64,000 bases of DNA. Origin: Verrucomicrobiaceae bacterium. Lineage in GTDB: Bacteria; Verrucomicrobiota; Verrucomicrobiia; Verrucomicrobiales; Akkermansiaceae. Positions 1-15,422 of this stretch are shown here, piece by piece (position 1 is the stretch's first letter; every line of letters begins with the position of its first letter). Below the pieces are notes generated by a model. It saw only the letters and a list, made by a program, of their open reading frames with translations. It was not told where the DNA came from and did not search any database. The stretch is taken from assembly GCA_027491155.1 (NCBI GenBank), contig JAIXWR010000018.1, forward strand, positions 62,001-126,000. Direction: 5' to 3'. The translations under genes were made by a program, and so were the position numbers.

Positions 1-2533
1 GCAAGGAACGGATGCCCGGCGTCAGATCGATGATCCCCGCGAGCTCCTGCTTCTTGAGCCACTCGTAAACCACGTGCGCCTTGAAGCGCAGCTTGAGGTC
101 GAGGTGGTGCGGGCCGAACTCGATCAGGATGTAGCGGTCACCAGCACGGCGGACCACGACGGCGTCGTCTTGATCGCCGAAGCGATCCAGAATTGCCGAT
201 TGAAGATCGACGATTGTCGATTGAGGAACGGGAAGATCCCGGGCTTCGCCGTTCAGGAATGCCGCCACCGCGATGCTTTGGTCGCGGGCCCAAGCTTCGT
301 CGACCGGGACGAAGGTGATCCGGTCGCCCGGGCGCAGTTGACCGAGCTTCCAGAGTTCGGCATCGACGACCACCACCGGGCAGACGAAGCCGCCGAGGCT
401 GGGACCGTCAGGGCCGAGGATGACCGGCATGTCGCCGGTGAAGTCGACCGCTCCGATCGCGTAGGCGTTGTCGTGGAGGTTCGACGGGTGAAGCCCCGCC
501 TCGCCGCCATCCGTCCGTGCCCACTTAGGCTTCGGCCCGATCAAGCGGACGCCGGTGCGGGCCGAGTTGTAGTGAACTTCCCAGGCCGTGGCGAAGAAGG
601 TCTCGATGTCCTCATCGAGGAAAAAGTCGGGAGCGCCGTGCGGCCCGTAGAGGACGCCGATCTTCCAGTCGTGGCGAAGCCCTAAGGAGTGTCGACCTGT
701 GGTCGACACGAGCGTCGACCGAAGGTCGACACTCCTTATCCCAAGTACGTCCCCCGGCAACAAAGCTCGACCGAAAGGCCCGCCGAATCTTCCCAGCGTG
801 AAGGTCGACGCGCTGCCGAGGTAATCCGGCGACTCGATGCCGCCCGCGACCGCCAGATAGCAGCGCATGCCAGGTCCCTCGATCCGACCGATCTTGAGCG
901 TATCGCCCGCCGCCACCTCGAAGGCCGTGCCGCAGTCCAACGCCTCGCCGTTCTTCAGCACCAGCACCTCCGCTCCGGCGATCGCCACCGTGGCGGAGGT
1001 GTTGAAGCGAAGCGTCGGCCCGCTCATCGTGATCTCCAAGCCGGGAGCACCTTCAGGATTGCCGACGAGACGGTTCGCCAGCCGGAACGACAGCGAATCG
1101 AAGGGCCCGCACGGCGGAACGCCGACCTCCCACAAACCGGTGCGCCCCGGCCAGTCCTGCACCGTGGTCATCGTGCCCGCCGACAGCACGTCGAAGGTGT
1201 TCGGCCGGTAGTCGAAGCCCGCCATATCACGCATCGCCACCCCGCCCGCCACGAAGAGCGGCCAGCACGCGACCTGGCGCAGGTAACGCAGGTTGGTCTC
1301 GATTCCCGAGATCCGGGTCTCGTCAAGCGCCCGCCCTAACAGCCCGACCGCCGCCGCCCGGTCCGCGCCGTGAACCATCACCTTGCAGAGCAGCGGATCG
1401 TAATACGGACTCACCTCGGTACCCGCGGCGATCCAGCCGTCGCAGCGCGCCCACTCGGGAAAGCTCGCCTCGGTCAGCAGCCCGCAACTCGGGCGGAAGT
1501 TATGGTTCGGATCCTCCGCGTAAACCCGGGCCTGGATCGCATGGCCCCGCGGCTCCGGCGCGGACAGCGGCATCACCCAGCCGGGATCGAGCGCCAGCCG
1601 GATCATCCACTCAACCAGATCGATCCCCATCACCAGCTCGGTCACCCCGTGCTCGACCTGCAAGCGCGTGTTCACTTCCAGGAAGAAGAAGTCCTGCCGG
1701 TCCGCGTCGTAGATGAACTCGACCGTGCCCGCCGAGCGGTAGCTCACGCTCTCGCCCAGCTTCACCGCGGCCGCGTGCAGGGCCCCGCGGACCTCGGCCG
1801 AAAGTCCCGGCGCGGGTGTTTCCTCAAAGACCTTCTGGTTGCGCCGCTGCACCGAGCAATCGCGCTCGCCGAGCGCCAACACCCGGCCCGCCCCGTCGCC
1901 GAAAATCTGCACCTCGACGTGCCGCCCACGCTGGATGAAGCGCTCGATGAACACGCCGCCCGAGCCGAAGCTCCGCTCGCTGAGCCGCACCACGCTTTCA
2001 AACTCTCTCGCCAGCTCGTCTGCATCGCGGCAGACCTTCATCCCGATCCCGCCGCCGCCCGCCGTGCTTTTCAGCATCACCGGATACCCGATCTCCTCCG
2101 CCGCCGTGACCGCCGTTTCCGCGCTCTCTAACAAATCCGTCCCCGGCACCAGCGGCACCCCCGCCTCGCCGGCAAGCCGCCGGGCCTCGTGCTTCAGGCC
2201 GAAGGCGATGATCTGCTCCGGCGTCGGCCCCAGCCACTTGACCCCGGCCTCCTCGCACATCCGGGCGAAATCGGTGTTCTCGCTCAGCAGGCCGTAGCCC
2301 GGGAACACCGCCGCCGCGCCGCTTTGCTTCGCGATTTCAATCAGCGAGTCCTTCCGCAAATAGCTCTCCGACACCGGCCCCGGCCCGAGCCGATGCGCTT
2401 CGTCCGCAAGATCCACGTGCGGTGCCCCGGAGTCCGGATCCGAGTAAACGGCGATCGCCCGATGGCCGAGACGGTGAATGGTGCGGATCGCCCGGGCGGC
2501 GATCTCGCCACGATTTGCTATGAGGATGTTCAT
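1..2533 (-). CDS. Urea/guanidine carboxylase, biotin-dependent (3' end beyond window)
   Basis: ATP- and biotin-dependent carboxylase that turns urea into allophanate or, in the DUF1989-associated class, guanidine into carboxyguanidine. The start at 2533 gives MNILIANRGEIA, the typical biotin carboxylase N-terminus, and STAGGGGIGMK near residues 155-165 is the ATP-grasp loop. The KipA-like (AHS2) domain spans roughly residues 440-780, with GPHGAPDFF and WEVHYNSARTGVRLIGPKP. The KipI-like (AHS1) domain begins near residue 795 with GDRYILIEFG and runs to the window edge with IIDLTPGIRSL. The biotinyl domain would lie outside. This domain order is diagnostic for urea carboxylases and differs from acetyl- or propionyl-CoA carboxylases. 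A 56-bp palindrome at 683-738 is read through in frame (about residues 599-617). Two DUF1989 genes directly upstream favour guanidine as substrate; that preference is inference. Confidence 0.93.
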   Translation of the reverse strand, partial: MNILIANRGEIAARAIRTIHRLGHRAIAVYSDPDSGAPHVDLADEAHRLGPGPVSESYLRKDSLIEIAKQSGAAAVFPGYGLLSENTDFARMCEEAGVKWLGPTPEQIIAFGLKHEARRLAGEAGVPLVPGTDLLESAETAVTAAEEIGYPVMLKSTAGGGGIGMKVCRDADELAREFESVVRLSERSFGSGGVFIERFIQRGRHVEVQIFGDGAGRVLALGERDCSVQRRNQKVFEETPAPGLSAEVRGALHAAAVKLGESVSYRSAGTVEFIYDADRQDFFFLEVNTRLQVEHGVTELVMGIDLVEWMIRLALDPGWVMPLSAPEPRGHAIQARVYAEDPNHNFRPSCGLLTEASFPEWARCDGWIAAGTEVSPYYDPLLCKVMVHGADRAAAVGLLGRALDETRISGIETNLRYLRQVACWPLFVAGGVAMRDMAGFDYRPNTFDVLSAGTMTTVQDWPGRTGLWEVGVPPCGPFDSLSFRLANRLVGNPEGAPGLEITMSGPTLRFNTSATVAIAGAEVLVLKNGEALDCGTAFEVAAGDTLKIGRIEGPGMRCYLAVAGGIESPDYLGSASTFTLGRFGGPFGRALLPGDVLGIRSVDLRSTLVSTTGRHSLGLRHDWKIGVLYGPHGAPDFFLDEDIETFFATAWEVHYNSARTGVRLIGPKPKWARTDGGEAGLHPSNLHDNAYAIGAVDFTGDMPVILGPDGPSLGGFVCPVVVVDAELWKLGQLRPGDRITFVPVDEAWARDQSIAVAAFLNGEARDLPVPQSTIVDLQSAILDRFGDQDDAVVVRRAGDRYILIEFGPHHLDLKLRFKAHVVYEWLKKQELAGIIDLTPGIRSL
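683..738. repeat. BIME-like inverted REP pair inside the carboxylase gene
   Basis: A perfect 15-bp inverted repeat pairs 683-697 (TAAGGAGTGTCGACC) with 724-738. Each half is GGAG followed by a short hairpin of TGTCGACC/GGTCGACA type, the two halves facing each other. This is the layout of paired REP elements (a BIME). It lies in a coding frame and is translated without a stop, in the linker before the IGVLYGPHGAPDFF segment of the KipA-like domain. It also supplies one of the rare TTA leucine codons of the gene. Confidence 0.8.
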
Positions 2534-2540
2534 CGGTGTA

Positions 2541-2616
2541 CTGGACCGCGGACTTTAGTCCGCTCGGAGGGTTAGACGGTTAGAAGATCTCGAGCGGACT
2601 AAAGTCCGCGCTCCAG
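2541..2616. repeat. Inverted repeat (REP-like, CGGACTTTAGTCCG class)
   Basis: Two 26-bp arms at 2541-2566 and 2591-2616 are inverted copies with one mismatch, separated by 24 bp. Each arm contains the near-palindrome CGGACTTTAGTCCG. The element fills the gap between the carboxylase start (2533) and the upstream DUF1989 gene. Its right arm supplies the last codons and the TAG stop of that gene, so it probably inserted at the gene's end. Confidence 0.8.
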
Positions 2617-3249
2617 GACATCCCAGATGAGGACCTCAACCGGAGTCGGGTTCCAACCGTTGCAGGGGTTGTTGAGCTGCGGGCAATTCGAAATGAGGCA
2701 CACGACATCCATCGCCGCCACCATCTCGACGTAGCGACCGGGAGCAGAGATCCCGTCGGCGAAGGTCAACCCTCCTTCCGGGGTGACCGGCACGTTCATG
2801 AAGAAGTTGATGTTGCACGCGATGTCCCGCTTCGTCAGCTCGACCTTCCACTCCTGTGCGCCGCGGATGAAGGAATCGCGGCAGGCGTGCATGCACTCCT
2901 TGTCGTGGGCGTAGCGCATCGTGTTGCTCTCCCTCGAGCAGGCTCCGCCAAGCGTGTCGTGGCGGCCGCAGGTGTCGGCGGTGATATCCAACAAGACATT
3001 CCCCTCCGTGCTCATCAGCTTCGTCCCGGTGGTGAGGTAGAGTGCCTGCTGGGCCTGGATGGTGCCGTCGGCGGAGTAGCGCTCGGTCGGGTCGGCGGCG
3101 CTGTAGAACAAGGTGTCGGCGGCCTGGTTGCCTTCCAGATCGAGGATCCGCAGGGTCTGGCCTTTCTTGATTTCGTGGACCCACCAGTCGCCCGCCGGAA
3201 TGACGTGGCGGTAGCTGGCAATTGCCGGATCGAGGCTGCTTTCGGTCAT
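2599..3249 (-). CDS. DUF1989 urea-carboxylase-associated protein (carboxyguanidine deiminase-type subunit)
   Basis: A 216-residue member of DUF1989, the urea carboxylase-associated family. In characterised guanidine pathways two such proteins (CgdA and CgdB) act together to deiminate carboxyguanidine to allophanate and ammonia. Family features include the early [25 protein letters not shown], the cysteine-containing [10 protein letters not shown], and [15 protein letters not shown]. The gene starts at ATG 3249, 5 bp after the stop of the second DUF1989 gene, and is followed by the carboxylase, so the three are almost certainly cotranscribed. Its last codons (ERGL and stop) lie inside an inverted repeat, so the natural C-terminus may have been slightly altered. 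I cannot say which of the CgdA/CgdB roles it plays. Confidence 0.9.
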
Positions 3250-3254
3250 GGCGG

Positions 3255-3971
3255 TCAGAAGCGCAGGGCGTGATAGGTTTCGTTGTTCTCCCAGGCGCGG
3301 AGATTTTCCGGCCGGACGACGAAGGACGGATCGTCCAAGCCCGGAGCCTCGCCCGCGAGGACTTCCAGTTTCACCAGCCGCGGCCGATAGACGGGATCGG
3401 GATCGAGAGGATGCTGGCAGGTGTTGAGAACGACCAGCGTGTCGATTTCAAAACGCAGCTCGACGACATCGCCCGCCTTCGAGTGGCCGGGAACGAAGGA
3501 CAGCTTGCCGGCTTCATCGGCCACGACCTTGGAGAACCAGTTGAGATTCGGCACCAGGTCCTTTTTGCCAAGGCCCCACTTGGCGAGCTCGATCAGGAAG
3601 CAATCGCGGCCGTTGCGGTGCCAGTCGTTGCGGGCTTGCTGGTAGTTGGCTTCGCCATACTTCGCCAGCACCCGCGCGGCGTCGGAATGGCCGCAGACCG
3701 TGTCGTGCCAGCCGACCGTATCGGCGGCGATCGAGGCCAGCAGCCGACCCATGTCCGAGTGCAGGCAATACGGCGCGCGGAGGTAGAAGATGTGCTGCCC
3801 TTTCAGCGTGTCGGGCATGTTGTAGCGCTCGTAGCGTTCCAGCGCGTTGTAGAGCAGCATCGACACGTTCGCGCCGCCCTCCAGATCGGTCATCCGCAGC
3901 CGCTTACCGCGGGAAATCACACCGGACCACATGCCCGCGCCCGTCAAAGTCTTCTCGTAAAGGGTCTTCAT
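3255..3971 (-). CDS. DUF1989 urea-carboxylase-associated protein, second subunit
   Basis: A 238-residue DUF1989 paralogue of its neighbour, the probable partner subunit in carboxyguanidine deamination. Shared motifs are [17 protein letters not shown] near the N-terminus, [15 protein letters not shown], and [10 protein letters not shown] at the position of [10 protein letters not shown] in the other copy. I chose ATG 3971 (MKTLYEK) because GGAG lies about 9 bp upstream; a TTG at 3986 is the only earlier start after the previous gene's stop. It follows the NikR-like regulator by 15 bp and precedes the other DUF1989 gene by 5 bp. The pairing of two DUF1989 genes with the carboxylase is the arrangement of guanidine rather than simple urea degradation (established for the family; the substrate here is inferred). 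Confidence 0.9.
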
Positions 3972-3986
3972 CGTCGAAATCTCCAA

Positions 3987-4448
3987 TCATCCATTGCCGC
4001 TCCGCTTCGCATGCAGCGGCGGGATCAGGTGCGGCGTGAGCGTCAACTGCGCGGTCCTCACGCCCTTGCAGGTCACCAGCTTGTTGGCAATCTCCCGCAG
4101 CGTCCGAGCCGGACCCTGCATCAGGATGACCTCCAGCACGTGCTCGTCCTCCAGCAGCACGTGCTGCGAGGAAATCACTTCCGCAATGTGGTCGCGGAAG
4201 ATGCGCGAAAGGTCGCGCAGAAGGGTGCTCTTCGACTCGTCGTAAACCAGCGTCAGCGTCCCCGCCATCACCTCGGTGCCGACTTTCCCCAGATGCTGGG
4301 CCGCATGCTGATGGACCATTTCCGCCACCGCCTGCGAGCGGCTGTCAAAGCCGCGCTCCCCGACCAGGCGGTCGAGCGCCTGGAAAGTCTCCTCGGGCAT
4401 CGAAACGGTCACCCGCCTCACCCCGTCGTTGTTGTCGTCCGCTGGCAT
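3987..4448 (-). CDS. NikR-like ribbon-helix-helix regulator with incomplete nickel site
   Basis: A 153-residue protein with NikR architecture: an N-terminal ribbon-helix-helix DNA-binding domain (VRRVTVSMPEETFQALDRLV) and a C-terminal ACT-like domain (EHVLEVILMQGPARTLREIA). Aligning HVLLEDEHVLEVILMQG with HVHINHDDCLEIAVLKG of E. coli NikR keeps the first histidine, but the HxH second histidine is leucine and the cysteine is valine, so the square-planar nickel site looks dismantled. It is the first gene of the DUF1989-carboxylase operon and so probably its local regulator. The effector could be another metal or a small molecule; this is inference. A sigma-54-like box lies immediately upstream. 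Confidence 0.85.
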   Translation of the reverse strand: MPADDNNDGVRRVTVSMPEETFQALDRLVGERGFDSRSQAVAEMVHQHAAQHLGKVGTEVMAGTLTLVYDESKSTLLRDLSRIFRDHIAEVISSQHVLLEDEHVLEVILMQGPARTLREIANKLVTCKGVRTAQLTLTPHLIPPLHAKRSGNG

Positions 4449-4459
4449 CGGCAGGAAGA

Positions 4460-4478
4460 CTAAGCAGTCGCGGGGCCA
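4460..4478 (-). promoter_or_regulatory. Possible sigma-54 promoter upstream of the NikR-like gene
   Basis: On the minus strand TGGCCCCGCGACTGCTTAG has TGG and CTGCT with exact GG-N10-GC spacing and the CTGCT box seen at the other candidate sites. The GC is only about 16 bp from the ATG at 4448, so the leader would be almost absent. That makes this the weakest of the four candidates. Confidence 0.3.
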
Positions 4479-4534
4479 GTATGAAGAACTTTTTCATTCG
4501 TCATACCCTCCAGCCGGAGTGCCGACCTCACAAA

Positions 4535-4635: not shown

Positions 4636-5583
4636 TCAGAAGCGCCAGACGAGGTCCAGCGTGAGGCGGCTTTCGATCACGCTGTTCTCCTCGCTGGTCA
4701 GCGGGATCTCGTAGGCGACGCCGGTCTGGATGGAATCGGTGATCTGCGAGCGGAACCCGACCGCGGCGGTCACCAGGTTCCGATTCTCTTCAGCATTGCC
4801 GGAGCCGATGTTGAAGAAGTCGAATCCTTCGAACTCCGCGATGACCGGGACGGCGCCTCCGGCCTGCGAATTGAAGGCGCGCCGGCCGTCGCCCGCATCC
4901 AGCACCGAGAACCAGTTGAGCTCGACCAGAGGGATGAACCAGGGAGTGACCTCGTAGCTGGCGTGCGTGCTGACGAAGCTGCTGGTAGCCTGCTGGTCGG
5001 AGAACGGGATCGTCACGCCCGCACCGCCGGCGAACTGCCATTGGTCGATCGTTTTGACCCCGGAAAGGATGAGGTTCACCGCCCCGTCGCCCGCGCCTTG
5101 GAAGACATCGGAGTTGCCGGTCGGAAACTCGAAGGTCATCGAGCCGCTCAACGCGTGCCCCGCTGCGGGATCGAGCAGGAAGGCATACTTCAGACCACCG
5201 CCGAGGTTGAGGAAGCCGCTCTCGCTGCTGAGCGTGGCGTCGGGGTTGAAGTCGGCGTAGCCGTCCTTGGTTGCCACGATCGAGAGCCTTTCGCTCAATG
5301 CGTATTCGAACTGAAGGGCGTAGACCTGGACGTCGCCTCCCACCGGCAGGTTACCGGCGGTGGTGTTCACGAAGTCCGGCAGCGCGTGATAGGCGAAGAT
5401 CGGCCGGATGTTGGTGCTCGGGACCGCCAGATCGAAGAGCGTCGGGTTGGTCATCGGGCGCCTGAGATCCATCAGCCAGTCGCCCCCGGAGTCAGGGGAG
5501 GCGGGAGGCATGTTCACGATTTCACCGGCCATGGACACGGTGCAGCTGCTGGCGACGAGAAGCGGTGCGAGGATGGATTTCAT
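4636..5583 (-). CDS. Outer-membrane beta-barrel protein
   Basis: A 315-residue exported protein. The start at ATG 5583 gives MKSILAPLLVASSCTVSMAG, a signal peptide. The remainder alternates hydrophobic and polar residues in beta-strand fashion (VQVYALQFEYALSERLSIVA; GGLKYAFLL; IQTGVAYEIPL) and ends with LTLDLVWRF, the terminal phenylalanine expected of a barrel inserted by the BAM machinery. I do not recognise a specific family or substrate. It is bounded by its own terminator downstream and a 130-bp gap upstream, so it is a separate unit lying between the two nitrogen operons. A channel for the imported nitrogen compound is a possible role, by position only. Confidence 0.75.
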   Translation of the reverse strand: MKSILAPLLVASSCTVSMAGEIVNMPPASPDSGGDWLMDLRRPMTNPTLFDLAVPSTNIRPIFAYHALPDFVNTTAGNLPVGGDVQVYALQFEYALSERLSIVATKDGYADFNPDATLSSESGFLNLGGGLKYAFLLDPAAGHALSGSMTFEFPTGNSDVFQGAGDGAVNLILSGVKTIDQWQFAGGAGVTIPFSDQQATSSFVSTHASYEVTPWFIPLVELNWFSVLDAGDGRRAFNSQAGGAVPVIAEFEGFDFFNIGSGNAEENRNLVTAAVGFRSQITDSIQTGVAYEIPLTSEENSVIESRLTLDLVWRF

Positions 5584-5697
5584 CTTGGTTTCTGGTTTGG
5601 TTTGGGTGGGCCACAGGGCCCGCGTTACCAAATCCAGAAATAAGGCGGCACCAATTGGAAAATCCGGCGCGGGTTTCCATTCGCACTAACAGCGCTG

Positions 5698-5714
5698 TGA
5701 TCCGGGCGCCGGAT
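5698..5714. terminator. Hairpin at the 3' end of the ABC-Rieske operon
   Basis: GATCCGG and CCGGATC pair around a 3-base loop directly at the stop codon of the Rieske gene. There is no T-run, so if it ends transcription it does so weakly; it may instead stabilise the mRNA end. Confidence 0.3.
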
Positions 5715-6883
5715 CAGGCTCCCGCCCGTCCGATCACCCCGGCCAGATATCTTTGGAGTTGCCAGATCGTCTCTTCCAAGTGGCTCAGGCGACCCGGCGA
5801 GTAGCCAGCCGATGCCATGCCGCGCTGGGTGGCGGTGCACATTTCCATGTCCTCCAGATGGAAGTCGATCCCCGCCTGGACCTCGCGGGCGAGCACCGCC
5901 TCATAGTCCGGCATCGCCTTCGCCTCCGGCCGGACAAGCATCGTGGTGAGCAGGCTACTGGTCGCCGGGCCGGTCGGCACGATGCGATACCAATAGACGC
6001 GGTCGGGGGCGTTGAAGAAGAGGCCGTTCGGGTAGGCGAGGTAGATCGACCATTCGAGGCAGTCGTCGAGCCCGAGGCCCGGAAAGATCGGAAAGGCGGT
6101 GCTCGCCGTTCCCGCTTGGCGGATCTCCTCTTGCATCGCTTCCTTGAGCGGCAGGTGCATGGCGGAAAAGGCGGGATCGAAGGGCTCGGTCCAGCAGCCC
6201 TTGGCGGGAAGGAAGGGCTCGAGCGTCTTCCGGTGCGCGCCGAGGTGGTGGTAGCACTCCATGAAATTCTCGACGAGGACCTTCCAGTTGAAGGCACATT
6301 CCCAGTGCGCCGACCAGACGACCTCGGCCTCGGCCATCCGCCACTTGCCGAGCAAGCGGTCCTTCAGGCCGGCCAGCCTTTCATCCAAGGGCGGGGCCTC
6401 GCCGGAGAGGTCGACGAAGACGAAGCCTTCCCACACCGCCGAACGGAAGGCGTGGAGGCAGACCTCGGAGCGATCAAAGCCCTCCGCCTGCTGCATCTCC
6501 GGCGCGCCGACGAGCTTGCCGGTGAGATCGTAGCTCCACAGGTGGTAGGGACAGAGGACCACGCGCTTGTTGCCCTCGTCCGGATGACCGAAGCCGCTGG
6601 GCATCACGTCCATCCCGCGGTGGCGGCAGGTGCGGGACAGCACGCGGATGACCTCGTCCTTGCCGCGGATCACCAGCAGCGGTTCGTCCGCGAGATCGAC
6701 GCGGACGAAGTCGCCGGGCTTCGCGAGCTGCGAGACGTGGCAGAGCGAGATCCACTCCTTGCGGAAAATCTCACGCTTCTCGAAGTCGGCAAACGCGGGA
6801 TCGAGGTAGGCTCCGGCGGGCAGCGATTCGGAGCGCTCGCGCGGCAGCGCGGCGGCGGCGGTGATGGCGTCGAAAAGGCTCAT
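5714..6883 (-). CDS. Rieske non-heme iron oxygenase, alpha subunit
   Basis: A 389-residue ring-hydroxylating oxygenase alpha subunit, a family that includes N- and O-demethylases acting on quaternary amines. The Rieske [2Fe-2S] ligands are in CRHRGMD (about residues 86-92) and CPYHLWSYD (about 111-119). The mononuclear iron motif is ENFMECYHHLGAHR near residue 210. ATG 6883 overlaps the stop of the TIM-barrel gene by 4 bp (ATGA), which fixes the start. It is the last gene of the ABC-GlnT operon. No reductase or ferredoxin gene is in the operon, so electrons must come from elsewhere. Its place among amidine- and amide-processing genes suggests oxidative attack on an N-alkyl group; the substrate is unknown. 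Confidence 0.9.
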   Translation of the reverse strand: MSLFDAITAAAALPRERSESLPAGAYLDPAFADFEKREIFRKEWISLCHVSQLAKPGDFVRVDLADEPLLVIRGKDEVIRVLSRTCRHRGMDVMPSGFGHPDEGNKRVVLCPYHLWSYDLTGKLVGAPEMQQAEGFDRSEVCLHAFRSAVWEGFVFVDLSGEAPPLDERLAGLKDRLLGKWRMAEAEVVWSAHWECAFNWKVLVENFMECYHHLGAHRKTLEPFLPAKGCWTEPFDPAFSAMHLPLKEAMQEEIRQAGTASTAFPIFPGLGLDDCLEWSIYLAYPNGLFFNAPDRVYWYRIVPTGPATSSLLTTMLVRPEAKAMPDYEAVLAREVQAGIDFHLEDMEMCTATQRGMASAGYSPGRLSHLEETIWQLQRYLAGVIGRAGA

Positions 6884-7710
6884 GACAGTGAATGGCGGTC
6901 GAGCTGGCGGCGGCCCAACCAGCGGTTGATCTCCCACAGGTCGGCGACCGGCGTCCGGGTGAAGGGCTGGCATTGCAGGTAGCCGTCCGGCCCGGACTCC
7001 GGAGTGAAGGTCGCGGTTTCCGTGCCACGTTCCCGCATCGCTGCGAGCAGGAAGTCCCACCAGCGCTCGTGGGCGGCCAGCTCGGCGGCATATTCCGGCG
7101 CCCGCGGATCGGGCACCTGCGGTCCCTGGGCGTAACCGACCCGGCCGTGGAGATGATGCGCGTGCCGGGAGATTGTCTCTAACAAAGCCGATTCATGATC
7201 GAGCACCAGCCGCTCGCACACGACGCACCAGTGGCTGAAGTCGCAGGTCAGTCGGAGCTCCGGAAAGGCCGCGAGGATCTCCGCGGTTCGCCACGGGTGG
7301 AAGGTTGGCCTGCCGCGGTGGGTTTCGACCGAGATCACGAGGCCGTGCCTTTGCTGCAAGAGCAGCACGCCCTCGTGGAAGCGCAGGCAGTCGTCGAGCC
7401 CCCAGGCGTCCGAGCCCGCCATCGTCGTGATGAACAGCGGCCCGCCCGGCAAGCTGCGGACGATCCCCTCCTCCAGTGACACGAGGTGCGCGTCCACGCC
7501 GAGATGTGGCCGTGGCAGGTATTCTCCGGGCGGCGTGCAGGTCGTCACCTCGGCGATCCACGGCGTGCCATCGAGCTGCCGGAAAAACCCGGCCGCATCC
7601 GCCGGCACCGGTCCTTCGATGCCGCGGAAGCCGGCTTCCAGCGCCATTTCGATCGCCGACGGGAGGTCACCGTCGTGGCCCCAGAGAGTCTTGAAAAGGG
7701 CGAGCTTCAT
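6880..7710 (-). CDS. Xylose isomerase-like TIM-barrel protein (AP endonuclease family 2 fold)
   Basis: A 276-residue protein with the opening strand MKLALFKTLWGHDGDL and the metal-site pattern of the AP-endonuclease-2/sugar-isomerase superfamily: LVISVETHRGRPTF (Glu and His), LRLTCDFSHWCVV (Asp and His) and HHLHGRVGYAQG (His). Members act as isomerases, epimerases or lyases on small hydroxylated compounds, usually with a divalent metal. The gene contains the LLE run coded TTG-TTA-GAG discussed in the findings. ATG 7710 is 6 bp from the preceding stop, and the gene ends in a 4-bp overlap with the Rieske gene. The substrate cannot be inferred from sequence. Confidence 0.8.
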   Translation of the reverse strand: MKLALFKTLWGHDGDLPSAIEMALEAGFRGIEGPVPADAAGFFRQLDGTPWIAEVTTCTPPGEYLPRPHLGVDAHLVSLEEGIVRSLPGGPLFITTMAGSDAWGLDDCLRFHEGVLLLQQRHGLVISVETHRGRPTFHPWRTAEILAAFPELRLTCDFSHWCVVCERLVLDHESALLETISRHAHHLHGRVGYAQGPQVPDPRAPEYAAELAAHERWWDFLLAAMRERGTETATFTPESGPDGYLQCQPFTRTPVADLWEINRWLGRRQLDRHSLS

Positions 7711-7716: not shown

Positions 7717-8385
7717 TCAAAGGTCGCGGGCGAGGCGGAAGCCGAGGTTGTCCCAGCGGGCGGACTCCGGCGCCCAGTCGCGACAGGAGGCCCGCAGCAA
7801 GCGCGGCAGGTGGTCCCAGGCCCCGCCGCGGATCACCCGGCGGCCGGGCGGCGCGTCGTCGAGCCACGGCGAGCCGTCGCACGGAGCGCCCTCGTAACCC
7901 GGATGCCAAAGGTCGGCCGTCCATTCGCAGACATTCCCTAACAGGTCGTGCAGGCCGAAGGCGTTCGGCGGATGACTTCCCACCGGCATCACCGCGCCGC
8001 GCCCCACCGCGAGGCCGCTCTCGTCGTAAAGGAAGTTGGCATCGGCCACCCCGAGGTCGGAGGCATGGGAGAACACCGTCGCCGAACCGGCGCGGCAGGC
8101 GTATTCCCACTCGGCTTCGCTGGGCAGGCGGCAGCCGTGGCGACGTGCGAAGGCCTCCGCTTCCCCGAAGGAAATCCCGGTCACCGGCAGCTCCGGGTCC
8201 GCGACCTCACCGCCGAACCACTCGCCGCGGGTCACCGGAACACGCGCCAGCTCGAAGGCGTGCACCGTCACCTCGTGGCGCGGCAGTTCCACCGCGCTGA
8301 CGAACTTGTCCTCCGGCACCCCGCCCATCCGGAAGCGGCCGGCGGGGATCACGATGAATCCGGTGGTGGGCGTTGCGGAGGACAC
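7717..8385 (-). CDS. Formylglycine-generating-enzyme-like (SUMF1/FGE) domain protein
   Basis: A 222-residue protein starting at GTG 8385. It has the FGE-sulfatase fold signature: FIVIPAGRFRMGG at the start, then RHEVTVHAFELARVPVTRGEW, RLPSEAEWEYACRAG, FGLHDLLGNVCEWTAD and RRVIRGGAWD near the end. The family includes sulfatase-maturing FGE, ergothioneine EgtB-type oxidases, nonheme-iron or copper oxidases and noncatalytic ligand binders. No sulfatase lies nearby, so sulfatase maturation is unlikely; an oxidative role on a small nitrogen compound would fit the operon. LRASCRDWAP keeps one cysteine near the C-terminus, but I cannot confirm a copper-binding Cys pair. It is 3 bp from the GFA gene and 6 bp from the TIM-barrel gene. 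Confidence 0.85.
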   Translation of the reverse strand: MSSATPTTGFIVIPAGRFRMGGVPEDKFVSAVELPRHEVTVHAFELARVPVTRGEWFGGEVADPELPVTGISFGEAEAFARRHGCRLPSEAEWEYACRAGSATVFSHASDLGVADANFLYDESGLAVGRGAVMPVGSHPPNAFGLHDLLGNVCEWTADLWHPGYEGAPCDGSPWLDDAPPGRRVIRGGAWDHLPRLLRASCRDWAPESARWDNLGFRLARDL

Positions 8386-8388
8386 GGC

Positions 8389-8808
8389 CTAACTGTCGGT
8401 GGGAAGCGGAGCGGCGACCTCGAAGCGCGGCACTTCCGCGATGCCGGCCGTCCATGGCAGCTCGTCGCAGGTCCAGCACTGGTCGACGGGCGGATGGGCG
8501 GCAGGATCGTCGAGCGTGTTGGTGTTCGCTTCGAACAGCTCGGGAATCGCGGGATCGAAGAAGGTCAGCGGGCTCCCGCAGTCGCCGCAGAAGGTCCGCT
8601 CGCGGTCGGCGTGGATCAGGAGTTTCGGCGCTCCTTTGACCCACGACAGGCCACCACTGCGGAAAAAGGTCCACGCCACACAGGGTGCCCCGCTGGCGCG
8701 GCGGCAGTCTTCGCAGTGGCAGAGCGTCGTTTGCAAGGCGCGCCCGCGGACTTCGTAGCGCACCGCACCGCAGAGGCAGCCGCCGGGATGGATCTCGCGC
8801 TCAGACAT
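8389..8808 (-). CDS. GFA-family zinc protein (glutathione-dependent formaldehyde-activating fold)
   Basis: A 139-residue GFA/CENP-V fold protein. Its zinc ligands are visible in GGCLCGAVRYEV, TLCHCEDCRRASG and TFCGDCGSPL. Proteins of this fold have been linked to S-hydroxymethylglutathione formation from formaldehyde, although many have other roles. ATG 8808 overlaps the creatininase stop by 8 bp. In an operon with a Rieske oxygenase, a formaldehyde-handling role would fit oxidative N-demethylation, because demethylation releases formaldehyde; this is inference. A longer reading frame upstream (to 8895) lies inside the creatininase gene and was not used. Confidence 0.85.
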   Translation of the reverse strand: MSEREIHPGGCLCGAVRYEVRGRALQTTLCHCEDCRRASGAPCVAWTFFRSGGLSWVKGAPKLLIHADRERTFCGDCGSPLTFFDPAIPELFEANTNTLDDPAAHPPVDQCWTCDELPWTAGIAEVPRFEVAAPLPTDS

Positions 8809-9589
8809 GGGGAACTTCGGGAAGACCGACCCAGTGCTCTGGTAGCAACGGAGGCTCCTCGTGGATCGCGGTTTCGATGATGGCGGACAGGGCATCGACC
8901 ATCGATGCGAAGAGCCGGCACCCCTGCTCCGCCGTGGCCCGCGACGGTTGGCCGGTCACGCCGTTGAGGCTGGTCTGCGCGACCGGATGCGAGAACACGG
9001 TGCCGGCAGTGCGGTCGGGATCGTCGGAATCCGCCAGCCGATCCATCCGCACGAGTTCCGGATGCAGGTGGAGCATCAGCGCGGTCTCCGCCTGGTTCGC
9101 GTGGAGGTCGGCGGCGTCGCTCGTGTATTCCGCCCAGATCGCATCGCTCAGTTTGAAGACATGGACCAGCCCGACCTGCAGACGGCCCAAGTACGACAAG
9201 CGCAGTTGATCGACCGCCACCCGCGCCGGAGCGTCGTTGCCAAAGTGGGCGTTGACGAAGATCAAGCGCTGCCATCCGGTCGCCACCGCCCAGGCCGCGA
9301 TGTCGCGCAGCGTGGCGATCAGCGTGTCGTGGCGCAGCGAAAAGGTTCCGGGCCATTTCGTGGTGTGGCCTTGCGAGGTGGTGTAGCGCAGCGCCGGCAG
9401 CACCGGCACGCCGGTCCGGGCCGAGGCCGCGTGGCAGACGGCCTCCGCCAGCAGCGTGTCCATCGCCACCGGCAGGTGCGGCCCGTGCTGCTCGGTCGCG
9501 CCGAGCGGCAGCAGCAGCAGTCCGCCGTTCCGATCGCGGAGTTCCGCGATCTCCGGCCAGGCGAGCTGCTCTAACAAGACCGGCTTCAT
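8801..9589 (-). CDS. Creatininase-family amidohydrolase
   Basis: A 262-residue member of the creatininase family, two-metal hydrolases that open or cleave cyclic amide and formamide bonds. The metal-binding pattern is present: LPLGATEQHGPHLPVAMDT (Glu, His and Asp), VNAHFGND in place of the usual NGHGGN, and LHANQAETALML (His and Glu). ATG 9589 (MKPVLLEQLAWPE) is 7 bp from the GlnT stop; the longer reading frame to 9793 lies inside glnT. True creatininases release creatine, a substituted guanidine, so this gene beside a guanidine-type carboxylase island is suggestive, but the family also contains unrelated amidohydrolases. I treat the substrate as undetermined. Confidence 0.87.
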   Translation of the reverse strand: MKPVLLEQLAWPEIAELRDRNGGLLLLPLGATEQHGPHLPVAMDTLLAEAVCHAASARTGVPVLPALRYTTSQGHTTKWPGTFSLRHDTLIATLRDIAAWAVATGWQRLIFVNAHFGNDAPARVAVDQLRLSYLGRLQVGLVHVFKLSDAIWAEYTSDAADLHANQAETALMLHLHPELVRMDRLADSDDPDRTAGTVFSHPVAQTSLNGVTGQPSRATAEQGCRLFASMVDALSAIIETAIHEEPPLLPEHWVGLPEVPHV

Positions 9590-9596
9590 CGGCGTG

Positions 9597-10955
9597 TTAG
9601 AAGAGCCGCGCGTAGGTATCGATCTCCCACTGGCTGACCCGCTGGTGGTACTGCCGCCATTCCTCGGATTTGTAGGTGATGAACTCGTCGCGCAACTCCT
9701 TGCCGAGGGTCTTCTCAACGAAGGGATCGGCAGCGAAGGCGGCGACCGCCTCGTCGAGGGTCTTCGGCAGCTCGCCGATTCCCCGGGCGGCAAATTCCTC
9801 GGGCGTCAGTTCGTAGAGGTTGTCCTCCTGCGCCGGGCCGGGATCGAGTCCCTCGCGGATGCCTTCCAGTCCGGCAGCCAGCACCAGCGCGGCGGCGAGG
9901 TAGGGATTGCAGGCGGCATCAGCGTTGCGGCTCTCGCATCGGCCGCCGGCCATCGGGACGCGAACCGAGTTGGTACGGTTGTTGCGGCCGTAGGAGTTGA
10001 AAACGGGTGCCCAGGAGTAATACGACATCAGCCCCTTGCGAACCAGACGCTTGTAAGAGTTCACCGTCGGTGCAAAGGCCGCGCAGAGCGCCGGGCCGTG
10101 CTTCAGCACGCCGGCGATGAACTGGTAGCCGAGCTCGCTGATCCCCAGGCCGCGCGGATCGTCGGCGTGGTCGCGCTTGAACAGGTTCGCGTTACTATGG
10201 ATGTCGTAGAGCGACATGTTGAAGTGCGCGCCGCTGCCGGTGCGATTGGCGAAGGGCTTGGGCATGAAGGTGGCGAGCAGGCCCTCCTCAGCGGCGTAGT
10301 GCTTGGCCATCACCCGGAAAAAGACATAGCGGTCGCACATCGTGAGCGCGTCGGCGTATTTGAAATCGAACTCGAACTGCGAGTTGGCGTCCTCGTGATC
10401 GAGCGAATAGAGGTCCCAGCCGAGGCCGTTGATCGCGGTGGAGACCTTGTCGAGCCAGGTGTAGCGGTCGAGGAAACGCTTTACGTCGTAGCAGGCCTTC
10501 ACCAGATCGTCGTCGGGATTCGGAATTTCCAGCGGACCACCCGGGGTGTGCTTGACGACGTAAAGCTCGCACTCGATCCCAAGGTTCATCCCGAAGCCCA
10601 TCTCCGCCGCGGCGGCGAGCTGCTTCTTCAGCGCGACGCGGGTGCTGACTTCGTATGGCTCGCCCTTGAAAGTGTTGTCCGCCGGGAACCAGGCGACCTC
10701 CTTGTTCCATGGCAACACGCAGCCGCGCTCCAGATCGGGCAGCGAGTTGATCTCGTCGTCGTTCGGCTTCTGGCCCAGCCCGTCGAGCGCGTAGCCGGTG
10801 TAAAGCTCGGAGCCTGCGGCGAAGTCCTCGAAGTGGTCGATCGGCACGAACTTGCCCTTCGGCACGCCGTGGATGTCGACGTAGGCGCCGACGCAGTATT
10901 TGACGCCTTGCTGTTTGAGCGAGTCCCGGAGGGCCCGGATGGAATCTTGATTCAT
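9597..10955 (-). CDS. glnT: Type III glutamine synthetase-like ligase
   Basis: A 452-residue glutamine synthetase of the GlnT class, which joins ammonia or an amine to glutamate at the cost of ATP. Relatives include gamma-glutamylmethylamide synthetase. Visible motifs are [45 protein letters not shown] and [18 protein letters not shown]. The start [11 protein letters not shown] at 10955 is chosen because upstream codons run into the ABC ATPase gene. The 61-bp gap to that gene suggests cotranscription. Its role here is probably to capture ammonia or methylamine released from the imported compound. Whether it prefers ammonia or an alkylamine cannot be told from sequence. Confidence 0.9.
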
Positions 10956-11016
10956 ACGTTTGGTTGGGAAAGTGTGAAATACCGGAGCCATGCTTCGCCC
11001 TAGCGGGGAGCTTCCG

Positions 11017-11910
11017 TTAGACAACGTCGGGATCGGAAACCGCCAGCCGCATGACCGGCGTTTCCTTCTGCCCGCTGCCCGGCGGATGCATGATCCCGTC
11101 GATGTGCTTGCGGGTGGCCATGAAGGTGGGATCGAAGAGCTGGGCCTCCGAGCGCGGGCGCGGGACCGGCACTTCGACCACCTCGTGGACCCGGCCCGGG
11201 TTGGCGTCGAGCACCAGGATGCGGTCGGAGAGGAAGACCGCCTCGTCGAGGTCGTGGGTGATGAAGACAATCGTGATGTCGACGTTCTTCCAGATGTCGA
11301 GCAGGTAGGACTGCATCTTGCAGCGGGTCTGCGCGTCGAGGGCGCCGAAGGGCTCGTCCATGAAAAGGACGCGCGGCTGGTTGGCGAGCGCGCGGGCGAT
11401 TGCGACGCGCTGCTTCATGCCGCCGGAGAGCTGGTGCGGGTAGGCGTTCTCGAACTTCGAAAGTCCGACCAGATCGATCCACTCGCGCGCTTCGCGCTCG
11501 GCGCTGAAGGCCGACTTGCCGGCCATCCGCGGGCCGAACATCACGTTCTCCTTCACCGACAACCAGGGAAAGAGCGTGTAGCCTTGGAACACCATGCCGC
11601 GGTCGGAACCGGGGCCGGACACCGGTTCGCCGTAGACGCGCACCTCGCCCGAACTCGGCGTTTCGAGGCCGGCGAGGATGCGGACCAGCGTCGATTTCCC
11701 GCAGCCCGACGGGCCGATCACGCACATCAGTTCGCGCTTGTGGACTTGGAACGACACGTCGTCGAGCGCGGTGACCACCCCGCGCGGCGTCTCGAAGCGC
11801 TTGGTCAAGCCGCGCACCTCGAGCGCGACCGGGCGCTGCCGCAGCCGCTCGAAGCGGGCGGCGACCTCGGGCGATTGGTCGCGATAGCCGGGAAGTTCGA
11901 GCGTGCTCAT
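11017..11910 (-). CDS. ABC transporter ATP-binding protein, nitrate/taurine/urea-carboxylase type
   Basis: A 297-residue ATPase of the NrtD/SsuB/TauB class. Walker A is GPSGCGKST, the signature is [15 protein letters not shown], Walker B is [15 protein letters not shown] and the switch histidine is in [11 protein letters not shown]. The start at ATG 11910 ([11 protein letters not shown]) overlaps the permease stop by 4 bp (ATGA), which argues against the longer frame to 12051. An N-terminal stretch of about 30 residues precedes the first ABC strand ([12 protein letters not shown]). It supplies energy for the importer formed with the two upstream genes. Confidence 0.93.
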
Positions 11911-13310
11911 GGCGATTCTTGGCGGGCGGATGCGACCCTTGACGCCTCCGCCGCGGACAGGCGGGCCTGGATCCCGGCAGCGGCGGTGCGGAAGGGCCAG
12001 GTGACGCAGCGGGCGATCCCGCGGGAGAATGAACCGGCATTCCCGGCCCACGGGAAAAGGAGGCCGTGCAGCCAGGAAAGGAACTGGTCCATCACGAAGC
12101 CGGTGACGCCGATCAGGATGATCACCGGGAAGACCCGGTCGAAATTGCGGAAGCGGCCCTGGGTCTCGATGAATTCGGTCAGGCCGCTTTTCACCCCGAT
12201 CAGCTCGGCGATGACCAGCCAGGTCCAGGCCCAGCCGAGGAGGATGCGGAGGTCGTTGTAGAGGTTCGGCAGGATGCCGGGGATGACGACCTTGGTGATC
12301 ATCTGGCGCGGCTTCGCACCCAGCGTCTGCGCCGCTTCCAGAAGGGACGGGTCGAGCAAGCGGGTGGTCTTGGAGACCACGAGGATCATCTGGAAGACGG
12401 TGCCGATGAAAACCAGCGCGACCTTCGGAGCGTCGCCCGCCAGCAGCACCGCGACCAGCAGGGTGCTGAAGGTCGGGGCGGGCATGTAACGGAAGAAATC
12501 GACGAAGGGCTCGAACAGCTTCGAGAAGAAATCGAAGACGCCGCAGAGGATACCGATCGGAATCCCGATCACGCAGGCCCAGAGGAAGCCGAGGAAGATG
12601 ACCCGCAGCGATTTCCGGTAGCGGTCACCCATCGTCAGTTCGCCCTCGGGGACTTCAGCACGGAAGTCCCGCATCCCGGCTCGGACGACTTCGTGCGGAG
12701 CGGGCAGATAGACCGGGTTGGCCGGCTTGCCCTGCGGAACGATCTTGAGCAGGGGCTCGTCGGGTAGCTTGCGGAAGGAGAAGTCGGAAGAGACGGCCGA
12801 GAGCTGTGCCCAGTTCTGCCGGATGATCCCGAGGTTCTCCTCGCTCAAAGCGGGCTTGGTCGCGGTCTTGGTGCCGGTGGCGAGATCGCGCCACAGGTGA
12901 TAGAGGACGGCGTCGTTCTGGGCATCGTCGTGCCCCAGCCAGCCATGGCCGACCGCCACCGGAGCAAGCTGACGGAGCAGCTTCTGGTTCTTGCGCCGGG
13001 CCCCGGACTCCGGCGTGCCCGCCGCCCTCGCCGCGAGCACTGCCTTGTTCTCGGTCCGCACTGCTTCGACGAACTCCGGAAAGAATTCCCGGCTCACGTG
13101 ATCCCCGGCGGTGAAGACGGTGGTCACACCTTCCCGCTCGGCGGAGAGCTCGATCTTCACATCCGGATGCCAGATCCAGGGGACGTAGGAAACCACGCAC
13201 CACAGCGCGAGCGGCAGCAGGAAGGAAACCGCCGTCAGCGCGACCCGCCGTCCCTGCGGGAGCTCGCGGCGGATCCGGAACCAGTCCTTGAGGAAGGCGG
13301 GACGTGCCAT
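11907..13310 (-). CDS. ABC transporter permease with large periplasmic insert
   Basis: A 467-residue permease. Residues 20-50 form a membrane segment ([20 protein letters not shown]). About 170 hydrophilic residues follow, containing [20 protein letters not shown] and [19 protein letters not shown]. The usual transport domain then begins with [20 protein letters not shown] and has the EAA loop [20 protein letters not shown]. Family members (SsuC, TauC) are usually about 250-290 residues, so the insert is extra. It is predicted to face the periplasm, because it lies between the first membrane segment and the start of the core domain. ATG 13310 ([10 protein letters not shown]) is preferred to the frame's first codon at 13361. 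It may help dock the substrate-binding protein, by position only. Confidence 0.88.
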
Positions 13311-13388
13311 GCTGGGAATCGATGGAGGAGAGAGCGGATCGTGCCGGTGTTGCCGCGGCACGATCCGGTGGAGGCGACGACGCGGACC

Positions 13389-14378
13389 TTACTTCGACTT
13401 GGACGCGGCCAGCGCCTTGGTCAGCGAAGGGTCGAGGTACTTCTCCGGATCCTGGCTCTTCTCGTAGACCTTGAACTTGAGGTTGAAGTCATCGACCACC
13501 TTCGAAGAGCCGTAAACGTTGCCCAGGCCGTCGCCCTTTTCCCAACGCTTCAGCGCCTCGTCGAGGGTCAGGATGTAAGTGCCCTTGAGGAAGGGCTCGT
13601 ACTCTTCCGGCGAGATCTTGACGCGGCCGGAGAGGATCTTGAGGGCGTCGTCCAGATTTTCCTCATCGCGGATGTAATCGGCGATCCGGTACCAAACCTT
13701 CACGACCTTGGCCCAGTCCTCCTTGTTCTTCTCGAGGCTCTCGGCCGAGACGTAGAGGAGGTCGTAGATGATCCCGGGCGCGTCGGCGGAGGTGAAGACC
13801 GGCTTCGAACCCGGAAGCGCCTTGAGCGCCTGTCCCGAACTCGGCTGCCAGGCCCCGATCGCGTCGACGGCTTTCGACGCCAGCACCTGCGGCGTCTCGT
13901 TGGTCGGGGTGTTGACAACGGTCACGTCGTCAGCGCCCATGCCGGCCTTCTCGAGCCCGGTGAGCAGGAGGAGATGGGAGACAAAGCCTTCTTCCAGCCC
14001 CACCTTCTTGCCTTTGAGGCCCTTGATCGAATCGATGCCCGGAGCGGCCACGATCATGTCGTTGCCGTTGGAGAAATCGTTGATGATGATGCCGACGGAG
14101 GGCTTGCCGGTGGCTCCGGTGACCAGGGCGTCGCCGTTGGTCATGCACACCGCATCGACCTTGCCGGCCACGTAGGCGTCCATCGAGGGGACGTAGTCGA
14201 ACCACTCGAACTTGACGTCGACGCCTTCCTCCTTGAACCACCCCTTCTGGATGGCGATCTCCCAGGCGACCCAGCCGGGCCAGTCGGAGTAGGCGATTTT
14301 GAGGGGTTCGGCCTGAGCAGTGCCGGCGAGGGCTAACAGGCCTGCAAGAAGGCAGCGGAAGCGGGGAAGCGTTTTCAT
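13389..14378 (-). CDS. ABC substrate-binding protein of the urea-carboxylase-region type
   Basis: A 329-residue periplasmic binding protein. ATG 14378 gives a clean signal peptide ([19 protein letters not shown], cleavage after TAQA). The mature start [19 protein letters not shown] and the motif [17 protein letters not shown] match the family annotated as putative urea ABC transporter substrate-binding proteins found near urea carboxylases. Its place at the head of the importer operon and near the carboxylase supports a urea- or guanidine-like ligand. The frame's earlier codons up to 14459 contain no plausible signal sequence. Promoter evidence is described separately. Confidence 0.92.
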
Positions 14379-14445
14379 GGCGATGCGGGATTGGAGTGAA
14401 TGAATGCCTGCGGTATGAACTTTCCGCATTTTATTCACACCCAAA

Positions 14446-14463
14446 CTAGCAGGGGCCATACCA
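14446..14463 (-). promoter_or_regulatory. Candidate sigma-54 promoter of the ABC-GlnT-Rieske operon
   Basis: The minus strand reads TGGTATGGCCCCTGCTAG, with GG and GC exactly 10 bases apart as sigma-54 requires. It lies about 70 bp upstream of the substrate-binding protein start, leaving a leader of about 55-60 nt. The CTGCTAG box is identical to that upstream of the porin. Confidence 0.45.
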
Positions 14464-14483
14464 ACCGCCTTCGCCGGGGAAAC

Positions 14484-14516
14484 AAAAAAGGGCGGTCACG
14501 TTGCCGTGACCGCCCG
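14484..14516 (-). terminator. Rho-independent terminator after the porin gene
   Basis: Read on the minus strand, GGGCGGTCACG pairs perfectly with CGTGACCGCCC over a GCAA tetraloop and is followed by TTTTTTGTTT. It lies 30 bp past the porin stop, so the porin is a separate transcript from the ABC operon. Confidence 0.88.
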
Positions 14517-14545
14517 GAATGGAATCAGGATGGAGTCCGGAAGGA

Positions 14546-15328
14546 TTAGAATCCGACCGAGAGCTTCACGCCGGCAACGAGGTGCTCGCGGCCGCCGAGG
14601 GTTCCGGTACCACCGACGATCGGGGTGTCGGAAACCAGGTTGCTGTCGGCGTCGGAGTACTTCACGTAGGGAGCGAGGGTGATCCCGTCGCGGAATTCCC
14701 AGGGAAGTTCAGCCTTCACGAACCAGCCTTGAAAACCATCGGCGGTGCCGACGGCGCCCAGCTTGTCAGCGACCTGCCAGCCGTGACCATCGGCAATGCC
14801 GACGCCAGCGGACAGGTTCAGGGCAAGGCACTCGTTGAATTCGAAGGACTTGCTGATCTCGGGCTGCAGGTACCAGCCGTTGTTCGAGTCGAAATCGTAA
14901 AACACGGTGGCACCGGCGGTGATACCCCAGATCACTTCGGCGGAGGCGCCGAGGTAAACTTCCTGGGTGTCAAGGGTACCCGGGGTGTCCTGGTAGTTGT
15001 AGTAGATGTAGCCGAGCTCCAGGGTGACCGGGCCGAGCTCCTGGCTCACAGCGGCATAGAGGTCCAGCTCGTTGAAGCTGTTGCCAAAGGTCTGCGAGTC
15101 GTTGACGGAACCGTACCAGGCACCGGCGGAGAAGGCGGTGCCTTCGTTCAGCTGGTAGGACAGGTCGACACCGGCTTCGATCAGATCGCTGCCGAGGTCC
15201 ACGAAGCGGAACTCGTACTGCGTGCTGTAGCCGACATGGACTTCTCCTTCGATTTCCGCCGAGGCGTAGCCAGCCACGAGGGCGGAGGCAGCGGCCAGGG
15301 CGCCGACATATTTGGTGTGTTTGCGCAT
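14546..15328 (-). CDS. Putative porin of the TorF/Gcw_chp family
   Basis: A 260-residue exported beta-barrel protein. The signal peptide is MRKHTKYVGALAAASALVAG with cleavage after YASA. The mature start (EIEGEVHVGYSTQYEFRFVD) and repeated strands such as VTLELGYIYYNYQDTP and VIWGITAGATVFYDFDSN match the Gcw_chp/TorF putative porins. It ends GVKLSVGF with the terminal phenylalanine of outer-membrane barrels. It is transcribed toward the ABC operon but ends in its own strong terminator. A sigma-54-like site upstream suggests expression under nitrogen limitation, with a role in passing the nitrogen compound across the outer membrane (inference). Confidence 0.87.
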   Translation of the reverse strand: MRKHTKYVGALAAASALVAGYASAEIEGEVHVGYSTQYEFRFVDLGSDLIEAGVDLSYQLNEGTAFSAGAWYGSVNDSQTFGNSFNELDLYAAVSQELGPVTLELGYIYYNYQDTPGTLDTQEVYLGASAEVIWGITAGATVFYDFDSNNGWYLQPEISKSFEFNECLALNLSAGVGIADGHGWQVADKLGAVGTADGFQGWFVKAELPWEFRDGITLAPYVKYSDADSNLVSDTPIVGGTGTLGGREHLVAGVKLSVGF

Positions 15329-15404
15329 CTTGGTATTGGTTGTTCGGTTGCTGCAGGCCTTTGAATCTCAAGCATTCACTCGATCTCCATGAAGGCATCG
15401 GCGA

Positions 15405-15422
15405 CTAGCAGCCCGCATGCCT
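15405..15422 (-). promoter_or_regulatory. Candidate sigma-54 promoter of the porin gene
   Basis: The minus strand reads AGGCATGCGGGCTGCTAG. GGCATG and CTGCT are separated to give exact GG-N10-GC spacing; only the first base differs from TGGCAYG. It lies about 80 bp upstream of the porin start. Confidence 0.42.

Follow-up and report, generated by a model that had tools for sequence, protein, structure and literature searches.

A stretch of 64,000 nucleotides from the Verrucomicrobiaceae bacterium assembly GCA_027491155.1 (contig JAIXWR010000018.1, positions 62,001 to 126,000; hereafter the window) carries an island in which genes of a guanidine carboxylase pathway adjoin genes for an ABC (ATP-binding cassette) importer, a Rieske oxygenase and a triose-phosphate isomerase (TIM) barrel enzyme. 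The source genome comprises 5.73 Mb in 46 contigs, with a completeness of 99.67% and a contamination of 4.56%. The island consists of two likely transcription units, both on the minus strand, to which all coordinates below refer unless stated otherwise. Operon 1 (14378 to 5714), with intergenic gaps of -8 to 61 nt, encodes in order a substrate-binding protein (SBP), a permease, an ATPase, GlnT, a creatininase-family hydrolase, a GFA-family protein (8389..8808), an FGE-like protein, the TIM barrel and the Rieske oxygenase. Operon 2 starts at 4448 with a NikR-like regulator, followed by two DUF1989 genes, the carboxylase and, past the window edge, an allophanate hydrolase. Every gene named in the initial annotation, made from the window alone, was recovered on this strand. 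Related loci were found by scanning a collection of species genomes with a TIM-barrel alignment and no other query, and the best 80 of 150 stretches were used; partner genes in them were called by tblastn (E ≤1e-5), many loci being cut by contig ends. Loci and genomes are cited by our own L and G numbers. In a tree of the TIM proteins, the rows nearest to that of the window belonged to Akkermansiaceae and other Verrucomicrobiota.

The carboxylase gene (2..2533) extends past the window edge, the full protein of 1193 aa being encoded at L003:12952-16533, and the allophanate hydrolase gene lies 3' of it, outside the window (L003:11186-13141). The carboxylase passed the TIGR02712 model with 1775.6 bits (cut-off 1303.85). 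Aspartates at K. lactis positions 1330 and 1584 are the published criterion separating guanidine from urea carboxylases (PMC11410670). In an alignment to 5i8i, on which positions were counted by hand, Asp697 of the window protein fell opposite K. lactis Asn1330, and the other aspartate of the criterion, at position 1584, was also present. A urea carboxylase would have Asn at the first position, and the aspartate found there speaks against urea as the main substrate. The two DUF1989 proteins resemble CgdA/B-type subunits: UAAP2 (2599..3249) scored 328.7 bits against TIGR03424 (cut-off 284.7) and UAAP1 (3255..3986) 316.7 bits against TIGR03425 (cut-off 205.95). The initial annotation had called the carboxylase a urea or guanidine enzyme; Asp697 and the adjoining DUF1989 pair favour the second half of that label. 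An enzyme set of this kind takes guanidine to ammonia and CO2.

Another 40 carboxylase loci, drawn from 36 genomes, were read for this residue; they lie in 20 genomes out of the 26 from the window's phylum that gave a match, and at 20 places in 16 of the genomes searched whole for a carboxylase (see below). The discriminating residue was Asp in 36 and Asn in 4. A DUF1989 gene was present in 33 of the 36 Asp loci (absent in L188, L211 and L215) and in none of the 4 Asn loci, a distribution that fits the rule; all four genomes with an Asn locus also held an Asp locus. Four DUF1989-linked carboxylases (L086, L096, L111 and L120) carry Cys (three) or Asn (one) at the guanidine/urea position, and these enzymes possibly act on a different substrate. 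In Gallionellaceae, a biuret-hydrolase-like gene lies inside the guanidine cluster (L112:14020-14658; same cluster in L093 and L114); it scored 253 bits against a cut-off of 370 when examined in L112.

The last three genes of operon 1 form its putative oxidative part. The CntA/GbcA-like Rieske protein (5714..6883) is a proposed N-dealkylase. Its closest solved relatives include carnitine monooxygenase, the closest, and the demethylase 4qup, which we take to be stachydrine demethylase. Cluster ligands, a two-His-one-Asp iron site and a Glu at the CntA bridging position are all present, residues with established roles in CntA-type enzymes, and among 44 loci the cluster and iron ligand columns are conserved in 43 or all 44. 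The protein shares these features with CntA and GbcA, but it failed the GbcA equivalog model NF058607 (148.8 bits, cut-off 670). The N-demethylation put forward in the initial annotation is consistent with these relatives. The xylose-isomerase-like TIM barrel (6880..7710) could, by analogy, be a hydroxyalkyl-guanidine lyase. Its predicted structure has a mean pLDDT (predicted local distance difference test) of 91.9, and the nearest folds of the model are ketose epimerases, sugar isomerases and related TIM barrels, which do not settle the reaction; a profile search of PDB sequences gave no match. Glu129, Asp157, His186 and Glu238 were invariant in 81 of 81 sequences, consistent with the metal site of this family. 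Formylglycine-generating enzyme (FGE) has a Cys pair as its active site; the C-terminal region of the FGE/PvdO/EgtB-like protein (7717..8385) contains one Cys, as judged by eye.

Upstream of these genes lie the importer and an amide synthetase. The SBP is SsuA/TIGR03427-like, with TIGR03427 as its best named match at 160 bits, below the cut-off of 333.9; its gene occupies 13389..14378, the likely start being 14378 and the longest open reading frame (ORF) beginning at 14459. The permease (11907..13361) and the ATPase (11017..11910) follow. The GlnT/GmaS-like gamma-glutamyl-amide synthetase (9597..10955) scored 608.5 bits against TIGR03105 (cut-off 469.6), and its closest solved relative is glutamate--methylamine ligase. 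As in GmaS (PMC7948447), Trp replaces the flap Glu of glutamine synthetase (GS), the catalytic Asp177 and Glu186 and an equivalent of Lys30 are present, and GS Asp50 is missing, with Thr in its place; GmaS catalytic columns without GS Asp50 were found in all 43 readable of 45 loci. By hand count along the alignment, two pocket residues of GmaS are changed, Gln175 to Ser and Asn188 to Asp. No clear N-methylglutamate synthase partner was seen in the same genome, where PF01645 gave two matches, one within a frame of 2039 aa and the other scoring 23 bits. The use of amines by GlnT, put forward in the initial annotation, is suggested by the closest solved relative and the GmaS catalytic residues.

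From what is directly established, namely gene content, the guanidine signature residue, co-conservation, the shared operator and the loss of nickel ligands, we propose that the two operons make up a single NikR-type regulon, in which oxidative N-dealkylation of an N-substituted guanidine feeds the guanidine carboxylase pathway. We would give this proposal about an even chance. The ABC transporter of operon 1 would import the substituted guanidine, the Rieske oxygenase would hydroxylate the carbon adjoining a guanidino nitrogen, and the TIM-barrel enzyme would cleave the hemiaminal so formed, yielding guanidine and an aldehyde. A co-produced amine or amide may be processed by the GmaS-like ligase and the creatininase-like amidohydrolase, and operon 2 would convert guanidine to ammonia and CO2 via the carboxylase, the CgdAB-type pair and the allophanate hydrolase. 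The NikR-like protein, its operator kept, would respond to a signal that is not nickel, the simplest candidates being guanidine and an intermediate of the pathway. For the imported compound, methylguanidine is put forward as a candidate.

The two guanidine-releasing steps are modelled on the MgdH/MgdL operon of Vreelandella boliviensis (PMC12508155), which is the closest precedent although its enzymes are different. Both systems combine a guanidine carboxylase pathway with an ABC importer, an oxygenase and a second enzyme, and a two-step release of guanidine is proposed here as well. MgdH is a 2-oxoglutarate dioxygenase, a family with no match among the scanned genes of both operons, whereas the island holds a Rieske enzyme, an FGE-like partner and a TIM barrel. 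MgdL is described with the residues Asp49 and Arg51 inside a beta-barrel (PMC12508155), and the TIM protein would correspond to it in role. Control is by riboswitch in V. boliviensis and would be by a NikR-like protein here, and GlnT and creatininase-like genes are absent from the published operon legend.

Guanidine-II riboswitches are found in some relatives with a different oxygenase. In proteobacterial loci there is no Rieske/FGE pair, and a desaturase-fold (PF00487) gene accompanies the TIM gene instead. Under stricter criteria than the general gene calls, 41 of the 80 TIM loci held a Rieske gene, 28 a desaturase-fold gene, none both and 11 neither, so that 69 of 80 had one oxygenase; FGE was present in 40 of the 41 Rieske loci and in 0 of the 39 others. 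This exclusivity would represent at least one replacement, not 69 independent cases. Among the 21 of 28 desaturase-bearing loci that were scanned whole for riboswitches, the desaturase-fold gene was immediately preceded by a guanidine-II aptamer above the gathering score in L100, L107 and L117, and by one just below that score in L103. Two further such cases lay elsewhere in the genomes of L106 and L089 (L240 and L262), giving six TIM-bearing genomes in total, five of them above the gathering score. A riboswitch-led same-strand run also includes the desaturase-fold gene, at a more distal position, in L093, L113 and L114. Judging from these aptamers, the counterpart oxidative module is under guanidine-type control in some genomes, and in V. 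boliviensis the guanidine-II riboswitch fails to discriminate between guanidine and methylguanidine (PMC12508155).

Operon 2 holds every enzyme and both signature residues of the Gca/CgdAB/AtzF pathway (PMC11410670, PMC12186494). It differs from that pathway in its control: riboswitch control was considered for this genome and set aside, as a search for guanidine-I and -II aptamers found none (under strict filters that lose weak matches), and a NikR-like regulator is present instead. A window-wide scan gave no guanidine aptamer of any class above the gathering threshold. Six searched Verrucomicrobiota had a guanidine-II match, with island genes absent from the 1.5 kb flanks in all six. The desaturase-fold enzyme was also considered as the arginine hydroxylase GntB; it scored 27.4 bits against a cut-off of 380 and tied with other desaturases, and the assignment was not used. 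In L069, L100 and L117, an AiiA-like metallo-beta-lactamase-fold protein and an EamA transporter are encoded beside the desaturase-fold gene, in a riboswitch-led arrangement in L100 and L117. In Halopseudomonas pachastrellae (G216), a guanidine-I riboswitch has SBP-like and desaturase-fold matches within 1.5 kb (L233), apart from the TIM locus L080.

Riboswitch and gene distribution also speak to the explanation that guanidine is the sole substrate, operon 1 being a guanidine importer with ammonia or amine assimilation, and the Rieske, FGE and TIM proteins handling guanidine toxicity or a by-product. Guanidine-I riboswitches precede the SBP genes in L094 and L113, and among the fetched loci of the phylum the usual form has importer, regulator, DUF1989 pair, carboxylase and hydrolase genes but neither TIM nor Rieske. 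However, guanidine offers no C-H bond to a C-hydroxylase, the closest solved Rieske relatives include a carnitine monooxygenase and a demethylase, and the TIM module sometimes comes with its own ABC transporter. We consider this explanation unlikely.

The proposal of a substituted-guanidine regulon also has to account for the NikR-like regulator (3987..4448), the first gene of operon 2, which matches NikR structures. The E. coli NikR operator is GTATGA-N16-TCATAC, and its nickel site is formed by His76, His87, His89 and Cys95 (PMC7055735). A palindrome search upstream of genes yielded this very operator. Exact palindromes were prominent before NikR and, in proteobacteria, before TIM; those before SBP, porin, cgd1 and FGE were shared by ≤3 loci each. 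The window contains an exact copy at 4479..4506, some 31 nt ahead of the NikR-like gene, and a second copy at 14413..14440 that departs from the pattern at one position (GTATGA-N16-TCACAC) and precedes the likely SBP start by about 35 nt. These are the only two sites in the genome at ≤1 mismatch, one for each operon; the reversed pattern gave 0, and 100 shuffles of the window gave a mean of 0.00. At three mismatches there was no excess, with 4 sites in the window against 4.71 expected by chance. In a looser palindrome scan of 122 sources, 44 sites were found compared to 11.4 per mononucleotide shuffle set, and 36 of the 44 lay ≤600 bases from a predicted SBP, NikR-like or cgd1 start. In four relatives (G239, G243, G248 and G251), a single contig carries two operator sites spaced 8.8 to 11.7 kb apart; hand mapping places them close to where the SBP and NikR-like genes of L043, L053, L067 and L073 start.

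The regulator thus shares family and operator with NikR (PMC7055735), and differs from it in that three of the four nickel ligands are replaced (R, H, L and V at positions 76, 87, 89 and 95) and that its window operator sites stand at guanidine-type genes. It appears, from sequence comparison, to have retained the NikR DNA site, having lost most of the metal site. The alternative would be that it still senses nickel or another metal, the metal supply switching the island, for example to replace urease or guanidinase when nickel is scarce. An operator identical to that of E. coli, a clear NikR family match and its standing as the sole NikR_C match in the genome favour such a role, as do related regulators, among which His76, His87 and His89 are kept in 19, 36 and 11 of 47, several keeping all three. 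Set against this are R, L and V at His76, His89 and Cys95 in the window protein and the absence of Cys95 in 47 of 47 related regulators, and metal sensing at this locus strikes us as improbable.

Whether a substituted-guanidine regulon joins both operons can be judged from gene neighbourhoods, and the initial annotation had named co-occurrence in related genomes as a check of its view that the genes form one system. Within about 10 kb of the TIM gene, the carboxylase was found in 35 of the 80 loci, from Verrucomicrobiota and Pseudomonadota, in 22 gene orders, some of which differ by truncation alone. The same 80 loci were counted for the other genes of operon 2 (each DUF1989 subunit 36, allophanate hydrolase 29, NikR-like 24), for the importer (SBP 67, permease 65, ATPase 51) and for the remaining genes of operon 1 (Rieske 42, FGE 40, GlnT 36, creatininase-like 35, GFA 13). 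We also searched 45 genomes whole, 44 with a carboxylase-free TIM locus plus G131; a carboxylase above cut-off lay elsewhere in 27, compared with 26 of 194 genomes sampled from the window's phylum, and eight more gave partial matches of 674 to 1298 bits, guanidine and urea types being told apart in the fetched loci. The cyanobacterial TIM homologues of L101 and L115 have no partner genes nearby. A single run on one strand in L096 comprises creatininase-like, GlnT, importer, PuuE-like, Rieske, FGE, TIM, carboxylase and hydrolase genes, neighbours overlapping or being separated by ≤48 nt (longest-ORF starts). Because of this co-conservation, the shared operator, the guanidine signature residue and the guanidine-II riboswitches ahead of the counterpart oxygenase in some relatives, the view that the two operons are one system feeding the guanidine carboxylase pathway is supported at the level of sequence.

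The same neighbourhoods could be taken as a loose nitrogen-scavenging island, in which unrelated catabolic genes lie beside an ammonium transporter with no common pathway. An AmtB-type transporter gene (15989-17494) adjoins the island in divergent orientation, amtB- and glnK-like genes (recognised by eye; clusters c22 and c20) occur in some related loci, and some modules occur apart. An operator common to both operon starts and to no other place in the genome at ≤1 mismatch, and the joining of both halves in the L096 run, are hard to reconcile with such an assembly, which we regard as about as improbable as metal sensing.

Two neighbouring genes are probably not part of the system. A TorF-type porin, which the initial annotation had included, is encoded on the minus strand, set apart from operon 1 by a terminator-like hairpin of 11 pairs (14515-14490), and was found in 2 of the 80 related loci. 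An outer-membrane-like protein with a weak Phenol_MetA_deg match (4636..5631), which the initial annotation does not mention, was found in 0 of 80 by tblastn. Further terminator-like hairpins lie ahead of operon 2 (4628-4605 and 4575-4540). All of these are pattern matches, of which the region has 12 compared to a shuffle mean of 10.0; with no excess, they serve as supporting evidence only.

The creatininase-family amidohydrolase (8801..9589) invited the idea, present in the initial annotation, that creatinine is opened here. In creatininase, Glu122 is a metal ligand. This column holds Gly in the window protein and either Gly or Thr in all 39 loci compared, and the window protein scored 137 bits against TIGR04448 (cut-off 235); identity as a creatininase was rejected on both counts, and creatinine degradation with it. 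A ring substrate (creatinine, for example, or a product of guanine oxidation) that the creatininase-like hydrolase, and in relatives the PuuE-like hydrolases, would open before oxidation would agree with the co-occurrence of both hydrolases with the module in relatives, but with both creatininase tests failed and the creatininase-like hydrolase also present in loci without the oxidative module, it is the least probable explanation considered.

Several observations weigh against the proposed oxidative release of guanidine. The support consists of sequence and gene context. The fold neighbours of the TIM model are sugar epimerases and isomerases and include no lyases of the proposed kind, and no reductase that could partner the Rieske enzyme was noticed among the island genes. 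Five TIM-free carboxylase loci (L178, L183, L189, L192 and L199) likewise hold GlnT and creatininase-like genes, and the pair may serve guanidine itself. A Rieske-FGE-TIM set with its own transporter lies away from the carboxylase in G131, L044 and L047, which suggests that the set can work apart from it. The carboxylase background of 26 of 194 genomes was sampled from the window's phylum, and many TIM genomes belong to another, so that the comparison is rough. The choice between Rieske and desaturase largely tracks phylum, the tree needing only two changes of the Rieske label, and an above-gathering riboswitch directly preceded the desaturase-fold gene in 3 of the 21 scanned loci. As for the regulator, the relatives that keep all three nickel histidines (e.g. 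L065, L079, L103, L117 and L119) could have a metal role. In addition, operator sites at ≤1 mismatch occur in 9 of 11 control genomes of the phylum, one to three in each and two of them exact in G051; the reversed pattern was counted 0 to 5 times in each of 20 genomes. Because control genomes also carry them, single operator sites mean little; it is their placement at both operon starts that is read here as evidence.

The core pathway, the NikR operator and every family individually are already known, while the oxidising half and the NikR-type switch look undescribed. The accessible parts of the open-licence PMC literature on guanidine carboxylase, NikR, Rieske, desaturase and creatininase proteins (including PMC2667541 and PMC7736828) contain no description of the combination, and where they join guanidine carboxylase with creatininase, the genomes concerned are without guanidine genes. 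It is tempting to speculate, although we hold it as a tentative possibility, that there exists a widespread, so far undescribed route in which interchangeable oxygenases, either Rieske with an FGE-like partner or desaturase-fold, act with a TIM-barrel lyase to free guanidine from N-substituted guanidines, and in which a NikR-family sensor has swapped nickel for guanidine or an intermediate, doing the job that riboswitches do elsewhere. Guanidine metabolism was uncovered via riboswitches, and the natural source of free guanidine is still open. The locus offers a testable candidate for a guanidine source reaction in several phyla, together with what may be a protein switch on the same pathway.

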